37,077 nt of DNA. Origin: an uncultured Bacteroidota bacterium. GTDB lineage: Bacteria > Bacteroidota > Bacteroidia > AKYH767-A > JABDAW01. Made by a program: the position numbers and the translations under genes. This document shows positions 10,167 to 36,989 of the stretch, piece by piece; within the stretch, counting starts at the first letter, position 1, and the number at the start of each line of letters is the position of its first letter. The stretch lies in contig CAIWCG010000223.1 of the NCBI GenBank assembly GCA_903911135.1, forward strand, positions 1-37,077. The letters run 5' to 3'. Under the pieces are notes generated by a model that did no database searches, had not been told where the DNA came from, and saw nothing but the letters and a program-made list of their open reading frames with translations.

Positions 10167-10796
10167 TTAATGTTTCATATTTGGTAAATCATAATAATCC
10201 GTGTTGGGGTTCTTTTTAATTACACCCCCATCATCCAAATGATATTTGCTCCTAAGCTTTTTTAACGAATTGTTTCTAGTCTTTGCGAAATTAGAAGAAC
10301 TCTGAAAGAACGGTTTGTTACCATGGCTCTCAGAAATGTTTCGTCTGTTATCCTGTGGCGGCGAATATTCCTTTCCCATCAAGGACGGATTTTTATTCAT
10401 CGAAGAAAACATCGAAGATGATTTCGATTTTCCATCACCCGAAGCACTGGGAAACACAATCGAAGATTTCGACAATGACTTGAAACCTTGCGAATGGCTC
10501 CTTAAATTCATGAAAGACGAACTCTTGCTCTTTTCCATCTCATCCTTGAAAGAAGGAAAAATCGAATTGGAATTGGCCAAATTATTTTTCCTGTGATGAA
10601 TCTTCGGTTTCGAGCTCGATGAACTGGATCCACCTGTCGATTTTGCCGGAGCAGCCGCACTTTTTGCCGAACCAGGCTTAGGAGTAGCCTTGATGGTAGC
10701 CGTTTTCTGGCCAAAACCCATCGTGGCGCATAGCAACAGGATACCAGTCAGCCAAACCGACAAATACCTGCCAAAACTACTTTTATTAACTCCCAT
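10167..10796 (-). CDS. Exported Ser/Lys-rich protein, unknown
   Basis: About 209 residues from MGVNKSSFGRYLSVWLTGILLLCATMGFG, a signal peptide, followed by a low-complexity basic region rich in Ser, Lys and Asn (KSTGGSSSSSSKPKIHHRKN, FKSLSKSSIVFPS) and ending DYYDLPNMKH. The ORF-track start at 10832 is upstream of the -7 box TATCTTTG (minus strand, 10814-10821), so the start is M10 (10805) or M13 (10796). It is first in a likely operon with the dioxygenase and membrane protein. No family recognised; the composition suggests a disordered periplasmic protein. Confidence 0.65.
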   Translation of the reverse strand: MGVNKSSFGRYLSVWLTGILLLCATMGFGQKTATIKATPKPGSAKSAAAPAKSTGGSSSSSSKPKIHHRKNNLANSNSIFPSFKDEMEKSKSSSFMNLRSHSQGFKSLSKSSIVFPSASGDGKSKSSSMFSSMNKNPSLMGKEYSPPQDNRRNISESHGNKPFFQSSSNFAKTRNNSLKKLRSKYHLDDGGVIKKNPNTDYYDLPNMKH

Positions 10797-10813
10797 TTCT
10801 CTCATCTTGGTTG

Positions 10814-10821
10814 CAAAGATA
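10814..10821 (-). promoter_or_regulatory. -7 promoter box for the dioxygenase operon
   Basis: CAAAGATA reads TATCTTTG on the minus strand (TAnnTTTG). It rules out the 10832 start. Confidence 0.55.
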
Positions 10822-10885
10822 CAAAATCTCAAAATCTACATCATCCCCTTTATAATACATAATTCACCATTAATGATTTTTAAAA

Positions 10886-11015
10886 GGAGCCTATGTTCGC
10901 TTCTCGTCCCATCTACGTCCCGCTATCCGCTGTAGCCGCTGCCTGCCCATTTCCGACACCAAGCAGCGGGCTGCCGCTACTATCGGGGCTATGCTTTGAT
11001 GGCAGGTTGCCTCGA
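10886..11015 (+). repeat. Structured dispersed element, left copy at R3
   Basis: Reads GGAGCCTATG...TTCTCGT...CCCGCTATCC, then a 15-bp imperfect stem (10932-10946 with 10966-10980, GTAGCCGCTGCC against GGGCTGCCGCTAC), then GGGGCTATGC and a small GGCA...TGCC hairpin ending CTCGAA. The right copy (11423-11554) is its inverted repeat. Relatives lie beside arrays R4 and R6. The conserved blocks and hairpin could be an RNA gene or the terminus of a mobile unit. Strand is given as GGAGCC-first. Confidence 0.8.
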
Positions 11016-11118
11016 AAGAGCTTTTAACAAGAAGATAAATAAAAAGTAATCAATGTTAAGTCATAGTAAGTGAATATTGCCTGTCAGGATGTTTACTCAA
11101 AAAGGTGCTCCCAAAGGC

Positions 11119-11328
11119 AAGTTGTACAAACTTCTTGAAAAGTTGTACAACTCTTGAGAAAAGTTGTACAACTTTTTAGGAATTCCTGCATGATTTGGAG
11201 GAATTTTAAGCAGAATTCCTAAAATTACGTTCAAGTCTTGAGGAAAGGTGTACAAGTCTTTGGAAAAGTTGATCAACAAGTCAGAAAAGTTGTACAACTT
11301 TTCTGAAATTCTGTACAACTGCTCTCTC
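11119..11328. repeat. Tandem array R3, ten 21-bp units, palindrome-rich
   Basis: Units start at 11119, 11140, 11161, 11182, 11203, 11224, 11245, 11266, 11287 and 11308. The consensus begins AAGTTGTACAACT. Units 4-6 have diverged strongly yet keep the exact 21-bp length. The core is self-complementary: unit 9 lies in a perfect 26-bp palindrome (11281-11306, centre AAAAGTTGTACAACTTTT), and 11174-11185 pairs with 11213-11224 (TTTTAGGAATTC). The array is centred between two inverted copies of the structured element, about 95-105 bp from each. The minus-strand ORF 11097-11318 is a by-product. Confidence 0.9.
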
Positions 11329-11422
11329 TTTTCGACATTTAATTTATAAAAACGTTCATGTTGCCCTTAACTTCTGCCATGTTTGATGTTTTGGTAGAAG
11401 ACATTCTCATTCAAAAAGTCAT

Positions 11423-11554
11423 TTCGAGGCAACCTGCCGTCAAAGCATAGCCCCGATAGTAGCGGCAGCCCGCTGCTTGGTGTCGGAAATGGGCAGGCAG
11501 CGGCTACAGCGGATAGCGGGACGCACCATGATACGAGATGTGCACATAGGCTCC
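11423..11554 (-). repeat. Structured dispersed element, right copy at R3
   Basis: Inverted partner of 10886-11015. The roughly 98-bp core, from TTCGAGGCAACC to GGATAGCGGGACG, matches the complement of the left copy with one difference. The outer part diverges but keeps TCTCG and AGCCTA. With the left copy it frames a unit of about 670 bp that contains array R3 and no gene. Confidence 0.8.
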
Positions 11555-11640
11555 TTAAAAGTAAACTTGATTTTTTATCTACCTACAGCTAAATTTTAAG
11601 GGGATTATCCGATTTTGACTTAAATATCCTTTTTTTCTTT

Positions 11641-11665: not shown

Positions 11666-12208
11666 ATGGATATCCAAACTACACCTATCGAAGGTCTATT
11701 GATTCTCAACCCACGCATTTTTAAGGACGAAAGAGGCTACTTTTTTGAATCTTACAACAAGCTCGAGTTCGAACGGCTGGGCCTGAATTTCAATTTTGTG
11801 CAAGACAACCAGTCGTTTTCCATCAAGCATGTTTTGCGCGGTTTGCATTATCAAAATCCTCCGTTCGAGCAGGGAAAACTGGTTTCGGTGGCCTCCGGTG
11901 CGGCACTCGATGTGGCGGTGGATATAAGGAAGGATTCTAAAACTTTCGGGCAACATTTCTCGGTCATTCTGTCGGAAGAGAATAACAAGATTTTTTGGAT
12001 TCCTGCCGGTTTTGCCCATGGTTTCATTACGCTGGAGGACAATACCCGATTCGTTTACAAATGCACCAACAACTACAATAAAGCTGCCGAAGGTGGCATC
12101 ATCTGGAATGACCCGGACCTGAATATCGATTGGGGTATAGACAAGCCATTGATTTCTGAAAAGGATCAGATTCTGCCAAGACTCAAGGAGATAAAAAGTT
12201 CTTTTTAA
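11666..12208 (+). CDS. rfbC: dTDP-4-dehydrorhamnose 3,5-epimerase
   Basis: 180 residues, the usual RmlC length. It epimerises dTDP-4-keto-6-deoxyglucose at C3 and C5 in dTDP-L-rhamnose synthesis, in the cytoplasm. The cupin signature is complete: KDERGYFFESYN, NQSFSIKHVLRGLHYQ with catalytic H61, LVSVASGAALDVAVDIRKDS, FWIPAGFAHGF and FVYKCT with Y131. It is followed 42 bases later by a polyprenyl-phosphate sugar transferase, so both probably serve surface polysaccharide synthesis. rfbA, rfbB and rfbD are not in the window. Confidence 0.95.
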   Translation: MDIQTTPIEGLLILNPRIFKDERGYFFESYNKLEFERLGLNFNFVQDNQSFSIKHVLRGLHYQNPPFEQGKLVSVASGAALDVAVDIRKDSKTFGQHFSVILSEENNKIFWIPAGFAHGFITLEDNTRFVYKCTNNYNKAAEGGIIWNDPDLNIDWGIDKPLISEKDQILPRLKEIKSSF

Positions 12209-13333: not shown

Positions 13334-13372
13334 ATTTTCTTCTTCTTTTTCGGGTTATCTGCCGAAAGCTGG

Positions 13373-13508
13373 TTCGAGGCTGTGGCCATAGAGCATAGCC
13401 CTGACATGCCCAAGGTTATCCCCTTGTGCGTTGGATTGTGGGTGCCTCGGCAGGGATAACTGATGGCTGGCAGGAGGGACTGTGATACGAGAAGTTGCCA
13501 TAGGCTTC
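13373..13508 (-). repeat. Structured dispersed element at R4
   Basis: Read on the minus strand it begins GAAGCCTATGG...TTCTCGTATCACAGTCCC, then a hairpin closed by GTTATCCC/GGGATAAC (13415-13422 with 13453-13460), then TTGGGCATGTCAGGGCTATG and a GGC...GCC hairpin ending CTCGAA. It lines up block by block with the element at 24664-24810 and the two copies at R3. Its AGCCTA end faces array R4, about 30 bp away. It lies between the convergent genes at 13333 and 13729. Confidence 0.75.
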
Positions 13509-13537
13509 AAAAAATTATCCTGCTGATTATTGGAAAT

Positions 13538-13705
13538 GGGGGCTATCTTGTTTGGATAGGGGGCAAACTGGCTGAGATAGGGGGCTAACTGGTTAGGATA
13601 GGGGGCTAACTGGTTGGGATAGGGGGCTAACTGTTTGAAAAAGGGGTCTAAATGGACGGAATAGGGGTCTAAATGGATGGGAATGGGGGCATTTTCAGCG
13701 GGAGT
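13538..13705. repeat. Tandem array R4, eight 21-bp units with phased G-runs
   Basis: Units start at 13538, 13559, 13580, 13601, 13622, 13643, 13664 and 13685, all 21 bp apart. The consensus begins GGGGGCTAACTGGTTGGGAT. The plus strand therefore has a run of four or five G every 21 bp, often with a GGG between, giving G-quadruplex potential. It sits between two convergent genes. The minus-strand ORF 13355-14230 reads heptads (QLAPYPN) here but overlaps a real gene in another frame and is rejected. Confidence 0.9.
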
Positions 13706-17091: not shown

Positions 17092-17381
17092 ATAATGTTG
17101 AACGGTATTGCATGAACATCACGCAGTATTGCATGAACGTCGCACGGTATTGCATGAACGTCGAGCGGTATTGCATGAACGTCGCACGGTATTGCATGAA
17201 CGTCGCACGGTATTGCATGAACGTCGCACGGTATTGCATGAACGTCGCACGGTATTGCATGAACGTCGTACGGTATTGCATGAACGTCGCACGGTATTGC
17301 ATGAACGTCGTACGGTATTGCATGAACGTCGTACGGTATTGCATGAACATCGCATGGTATTGCATGAACGTTCAACATTAT
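17092..17381. repeat. Tandem array R5, thirteen 21-bp units with inverted edges
   Basis: Thirteen units start every 21 bp from 17103 to 17355. The consensus is CGGTATTGCATGAACGTC plus three bases (GCA, GTA or GAG). It is the most uniform array in the window. It is framed by a perfect 13-bp inverted repeat, ATAATGTTGAACG (17092-17104) and CGTTCAACATTAT (17369-17381). Five of six frames are open through it only because the unit is 21 bp and stop-free in those frames, so the five ORFs listed here are not genes. It lies between divergent genes. Confidence 0.92.
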
Positions 17382-24360: not shown

Positions 24361-24580
24361 CTTTTAGCCCAAAAAAGAAGTCTTGACGGGCAAAAAAGAA
24401 GTCTTGACGGACAAAAAAGAAGTCTTGACGAGCAAAAAAGAAGTCTTGACGAGCAAAAAAGAAGTCTTGACGGGCAAAAAAGAAGTCTTGATGAGCAAAA
24501 AAGAAGTCTTGACGGGCAAAAAAGAAGTCTTGATGAGCAAAAAAGAAGTCTTGACGAGCAAAAAAGAAATCCTTTTTGCC
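24361..24580. repeat. Tandem array R6, ten 21-bp units with phased A-tracts
   Basis: Units start every 21 bp from 24371 to 24560. The consensus is AAAAAAGAAGTCTTGACG plus GGC, GAC or AGC. The plus strand has an A6 tract exactly every two helical turns, a layout expected to curve DNA. Both edges carry inverted partial units: CTTTTAGCCC at 24361-24370 and CCTTTTTGCCC at 24571-24581, each resembling the complement of GGGCAAAAAAG. ORFs in several frames (24291-24622) are consequences of the period. It lies between the divergent unknown gene and recA. Confidence 0.92.
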
Positions 24581-24663
24581 CCAACTCCAAGCCCCTTTGT
24601 CGTTTTCAACACTCAAAAATGATAAAAAAACACTTGGTTAGCATCAAAAATGATTAGAATTTG

Positions 24664-24810
24664 GAGCCTAAAACCTCCTCTCGCCGCCATGGTCTCCACC
24701 TGCCAGCCACCAGTTAGCTCTTCCTTACGCACAAGAATGCCTTCGCACAAGAGGCTAAGCTTGGGCATGTCAGGGCTATGCCCCACGGCAGCATACACGT
24801 GCTGTGTTTC
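24664..24810 (+). repeat. Structured dispersed element at R6
   Basis: Reads GAGCCTAAAACCTCCTCTCG, CCTGCCAGCCACCAGTTAGC, then TTGGGCATGTCAGGGCTATG and a CAGCA...TGCTG hairpin. The central hairpin is TTAGCTCTT (24714-24722) with AAGAGGCTAA (24749-24758, one bulged G). In the R4 copy the same position is GTTATCCC/GGGATAAC, so both sides changed together. Its AGCCTA end faces array R6, about 85 bp away, the same orientation as at R4. Confidence 0.75.
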
Positions 24811-36764: not shown

Positions 36765-36989
36765 GTAAATAGGACTTGTGGGAGGCTCAATGGATGCTGC
36801 GGAGGGTTAAATGGAACTTGCGGAGGTTTAAATGGATGCTGCGGAGTATTAAATGGATGGTGCGAAGCATTAAATGGATGGTGCGGAGTGTTAAATGGAT
36901 GCTGCGGAGCGTTAAATGGATGCTGCGGAGGGTTAAATGGATGCTGCGGAGGGCTAAATGGATGGTGCGGAGGGTTAAATGGATGGTGT
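36765..36989. repeat. Tandem array R8, eleven 21-bp units
   Basis: Units start every 21 bp from 36765 to 36975. The consensus is TTAAATGGATGCTGCGGAG plus two bases, with GCTGC/GGTGC alternating. A 9-bp inverted repeat flanks it: TTGATAATC (36732-36740) and GATTATCAA (37018-37026). Three overlapping ORFs (36729-37033) come from the period and are not called. Confidence 0.92.

Follow-up and report, generated by a model that had tools for sequence, protein, structure and literature searches.

The two inverted repeats that enclose a 21-bp tandem array upstream of rfbC in the window (the whole stretch of 37,077 nt of DNA that was analysed) are best read as one instance of a genome-wide bracketed layout with interchangeable hairpin repeats, and not as a single jumping unit. 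Both arms include a Flavo-1 element (RF01705), one on each strand. The explanation we favour, with moderate confidence, is that the locus is a bracketed minisatellite, i.e. a 21-bp array between two inward-facing Flavo-1 caps, in which the array belongs to a class that the genus carries anyway and the arms, putative structural caps that separate the array from the adjacent gene, would have been added on their own.

The left arm, of family A, is 142 bp long (10884..11025, + strand, inner side facing rightward) and is the best match of the arm model with 154 bits, and the right arm is its inverted copy (11414..11556, - strand, inner side facing leftward, 150 bits), giving a bracket of type A/A. 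The Flavo-1 match lies at 10912..10994 on the - strand in the left arm (55.1 bits, against a cut-off of 42) and at 11445..11527 on the + strand in the right one (54.2 bits, against the same cut-off). As an inverted pair, the arms match over 110 nt (10916-11025 and 11414-11523) with 96% identity and continue outwards for 29 nt (10884-10912 and 11528-11556) with 83%. The first-pass annotation had reported inverted copies of about 130 bp around the array, with a single difference in a core of about 98 bp; the inverted copies are real, but the arms reach about 142 bp, the single-difference stretch covers 102 consecutive aligned columns before identity falls off further outwards, and each arm is also a copy of a genome-wide repeat. 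Between the arms lie about 390 nt with a degenerate array in a 21-bp register (~11115..11332, about 10 units), whose better-kept units have a GTTGTACAAC palindrome at their core. The unit had been described as gene-free and without a transposase, and indeed no ORF of at least 90 aa and no transposase is found inside it. A 221-aa ORF without Pfam match (10167..10832, - strand) lies 52 bp from the left arm and the dTDP-4-dehydrorhamnose 3,5-epimerase gene rfbC (11666..12208, + strand; PF00908, E 2.8e-72) 110 bp from the right arm, and according to crude ORF-based gene calls this is the only pair located between divergent genes among 23 classifiable pairs.

Flavo-1 was introduced as an RNA motif by Weinberg et al. 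2010 (PMC2864571); it is a dispersed intergenic hairpin of Bacteroidota whose function is not known (PMC2864571, PMC9723704) and is listed as one of the most abundant small RNA predictions (PMC9029176). The window arms resemble it in exceeding the curated cut-off and in being hairpins with a conserved stem, and the covariance model, with 150 candidates scored, finds at least 149 copies above 42 bits in the Bacteroidota MAG of the window (G000; 3.80 Mb, 296 contigs). However, in the Flavobacterium-like genome G210, Flavo-1 is almost always solitary and without adjoining 21-bp arrays, whereas in G000 it is a module of a 142-bp arm that is paired and oriented towards arrays. No arm was found in plasmids, phages or viral contigs. 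Within the arm, columns 11-18 and 24-31 are highly variable, with limited recurrent alleles (e.g. ATCCTC, GGTTTC, GTTCGC), and these variable blocks sit between invariant CTCG and GAGCC blocks.

The orientation of the arms was followed over 1.12 Mb of G000, made up chiefly of Flavo-1-bearing contigs, which inflates Flavo-1 counts but leaves orientations unaffected. In this sample, adjacent arms separated by less than 1.5 kb form 28 pairs, which are convergent without a single exception and 27 of which enclose an array of the 21-bp family, so the recurrence of such pairs around arrays, which the first-pass annotation had raised as a question, is genome-wide. Three of the pairs include a type B arm, which has both ends in common with the Flavo-1 arm and a different core. 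Clustering of the array flanks revealed this type and two further hairpin families, C and D, that are unrelated to the Flavo-1 arm. The array is on the inner versus the outer side of the arm in 109:1 cases for A (Flavo-1), 23:0 for D, 16:2 for C (which is nearly palindromic, so that its strand is less certain) and 7:4 for B, the one type that breaks the rule. Complete flanks are available for 147 arrays, of which 40 have a cap at each end, 35 at a single end and 72 at neither end. The capping of the two ends is associated (odds ratio 11.5, p = 3e-10), and at six arrays of this set arms stand in the wrong orientation. The double-capped arrays comprise 20 A/A, 11 A/D and five A/C brackets and four others. 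Single arms are common as well, and many further arms stand at contig ends with their inner side cut off, as expected if the assembly breaks inside brackets. Since 72 of the 147 arrays are without a known cap and 17 arms are without an array, each part can do without the other; the two are separate components brought together in a fixed geometry. We also considered inverted flanks as a trait of every array and rejected it, given that arrays without known caps rarely have them and are no richer in hairpins than control intergenic DNA.

These data bear directly on the proposal, also made in the first-pass annotation, that the locus is a mobile unit of terminal repeats plus cargo, i.e. that the arms are the terminal inverted repeats of a non-autonomous transposon. 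A unit of this kind has been described in Porphyromonas gingivalis, the MITE BrickBuilt (Klein et al. 2015, PMC4596501). The many inward-facing pairs around arrays and the associated capping would suit the proposal, as would the absence of both array and arms upstream of rfbC in either of two same-genus genomes and the loci L061 and L076, which have an array unit and A/A arms in common. However, L061 and L076 are the clear exception, the interiors being otherwise mostly unrelated from locus to locus, and similar array units at separate loci carry different brackets. Brackets also combine different families, and terminal inverted repeats are present in A/A and B/B brackets only and absent in A/C, A/D and single caps. 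Furthermore, single arms are frequent, the stems are free of decay, no transposase lies in the interior, and the congeners have such arrays without Flavo-1. Target duplications were looked for in 20 pairs, with no excess over shuffled partners (p = 0.47), and a search for an autonomous partner with the same ends, which covered Y1_Tnp, returned one decayed copy without arms. Taken together, the unrelated interiors, missing target duplications, mixed caps and congeners led us to reject a composite transposon, and the proposal as a whole appears quite unlikely to us. BrickBuilt nevertheless is the closest combination described within the open-licence literature: it too is a gene-free, intergenic minisatellite in a member of the Bacteroidota, enclosed by flanking elements and with a comparable unit length, but its 19 copies have one 23-nt unit family, and their leader and tail are distinct from each other and have small inverted ends (PMC4596501), whereas in G000 the units change from locus to locus, the caps are large hairpins that can replace one another, and target duplications were not seen.

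The arms themselves point to constraint. In 138 full arms, copies differ by 1.2% over the 55 stem columns compared with 23.5% over the other 84 columns, a 20-fold reduction, and 114 of the 138 match the consensus stem throughout; between an arm and its nearest copy there is a median of 10 differing sites, of which a mean of 0.33 fall in the stem. Because the stems are uniform while the flanks have diverged, the arms do not look like decaying transposon copies and, judging from these sequences, are being maintained. A perfect stem is found in 84 of 97 arms with an array versus 11 of the 17 without one. The simplest reading is that selection acts on the stem, and local gene conversion may account for some of the uniformity. 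The stem pairs are present in nearly all copies but are near-invariant, and hence there is no covariation within G000; the A stem is almost without change of any kind, compensatory or not, so the sequence itself, and not only the pairing, seems to matter. Type B copies, for their part, do show base-pair changes that preserve the stem.

Recent gene conversion between the two window arms, suggested earlier from their near-identity, is supported by the distribution of their differences. Over the inner 99 columns they differ once and the partner is the closest of 137 copies, while over the outer 33 columns they differ at 7 sites and the partner ranks only 76th. Such an event would concern a minority of pairs: in 6 of 19 A/A pairs no other copy is closer over the inner part than the partner, which does not hold for the other 13, and the slight excess in identity between partner arms relative to arms of different pairs (85.2% vs 83.2%, p = 0.0045) comes from a minority of pairs. 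The same figures weigh on the idea of a giant foldback RNA, in which the arms would pair in a transcript with the array in the loop, e.g. as a substrate of RNase III or as an array RNA. The region 10880-11560 does fold at -382 kcal/mol (z = -29 versus shuffles), since its arms are complementary, so that such a structure is possible, and the six pairs with the partner as closest copy could be taken in its favour. However, pairing between partners is not specially preserved, as their identity barely exceeds that of random arms, and A/A brackets occur at only 20 of the 147 arrays, A/D and A/C brackets and single caps being unable to form an arm duplex; we regard a foldback RNA as very improbable.

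A comparison with the two same-genus genomes suggests that, as a class, the arrays are likely older than their arms, although this is not proven for the window locus. Both have 21-bp arrays at a similar density and neither has Flavo-1. In two cases an arm-less array lies beside the same gene as a bracketed one in G000, namely L285 for the arm-array-arm locus L086 and L291 for the A/D unit L079, but good examples of positional conservation of arrays between species are few and overall not significant (p = 0.22). These two genomes provide no clean orthologous empty site for the window unit, the gene order upstream of rfbC being different in both. In 127 kb of one of them (G001), a small hairpin family of its own occurs near arrays; of its four copies, three lie at a distance of 95-151 bp and share one orientation.

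The absence of Flavo-1 from the congeners could also be explained if the arms were REP-like single elements moved by a Y1/RAYT-type transposase with a preference for a strand-specific target at array borders, the bracket being a by-product. Hairpin repeats that are solitary in other Bacteroidota and the fixed orientation of the arms towards arrays would fit this hypothesis, and Y1_Tnp matches above 60 bits were found in 13 of 20 Flavo-1-positive versus 5 of 20 negative genomes, kinship being ignored. On the other hand, G000 has a single, decayed Y1_Tnp gene whose surroundings (1.5 kb) contain no arm, Y1_Tnp is missing from at least two Flavo-1-rich genomes (G124 and G178), G210 has no Flavo-1 within 5 kb of a Y1_Tnp gene, and uniform stems with diverged flanks differ from what decaying insertions show. 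With no intact gene in G000 and no adjacency to arms, RAYT mobilisation was set aside, and we consider it unlikely. Known REP/REPIN and BIME elements with RAYT transposases (PMC3116915, PMC3733652) are likewise dispersed intergenic palindromes that can form inverted pairs, but they differ from the present arms in that these are 142 bp long, have large variable arrays between them, belong to several cap families and are without an intact RAYT in G000.

To return to the bracketed minisatellite, a cap function is suggested by the place of the arms between gene end and array, by their orientation and by the constraint on their stems. The caps could be transcript hairpins involved in stabilisation, processing or termination or, alternatively, hairpins in single-strand DNA that would curb recombination or read-through at the edge of the array. 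According to crude ORF-based gene calls, arms are found at 96 gene 3' ends and 62 5' ends, with a median distance from the outer edge of the arm of 57 bp and 112 bp, respectively, while arrays without arms show no 3' preference (98 vs 115). The presence of arms at 5' ends makes a plain terminator a poor fit. Three array-free arms (L087:14067, L089:14417 and L094:6496) have a terminator-like hairpin (GGCGGCACC...GGTACCGCC) on their inner side.

The arrays show a regularity of their own. Of the 244 tandem arrays in the 1.12-Mb sample, 226 have a period of 21 or a multiple of it, about one per 5 kb, and their units are chiefly locus-specific, with 17 similar unit pairs among 210 arrays; other contigs (194 kb) have an equal array density (40 arrays, 28 at period 21) and few arms. 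The units are self-complementary beyond shuffled sequences (33% vs 10% at a dyad score of at least 0.7). Bacterial tandem repeats of constant size and variable sequence were described by Subirana and Messeguer 2021 (PMC8161180), and the G000 arrays, with a period fixed at 21 and units unrelated between loci, resemble their 20-21 nt class but differ in that about half have oriented hairpin caps; neither flanking inverted repeats nor palindromes or hairpins came up in a word search of that paper. We therefore propose, tentatively, that G000 might display a new bacterial chromosome architecture consisting of hundreds of mostly locus-specific 21-bp arrays, about half with inward-facing, constrained hairpin caps drawn interchangeably from several unrelated families, an element defined by the orientation of its caps and not by their sequence, of which the strictly oriented, combinatorial bracketing would be the newest aspect. 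If so, it would provide the first consistent genomic context for Flavo-1. Flavo-1, catalogued since 2010, and the unexplained arrays are two orphan puzzles, and now that one genome is seen to couple them strictly and repeatedly, both can be put to the test; the questions are how the stem acts at the borders of arrays, why hairpins of unrelated families interchange there and why the period is fixed at 21.

Elsewhere in the window, two type B arms (13365-13509, - strand, and 24662-24802, + strand) have 21-bp arrays on their outer side (13538-13691 and 24370-24568), against the rule, and a family D hairpin arm starting at about 17506 (- strand) faces the array at 17102-17371. At the window's right end, the array at 36789-36985 has a unit in common with L132:13320-13371, a Flavo-1-armed array at the end of contig C127, and the assembly may have broken a single bracketed array into these two. 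Finally, an AT-rich segment of about 30-40 bp (taattcataattcataatt-like, ending in TTTT or AAT) lies on the outer flank of many arms genome-wide.
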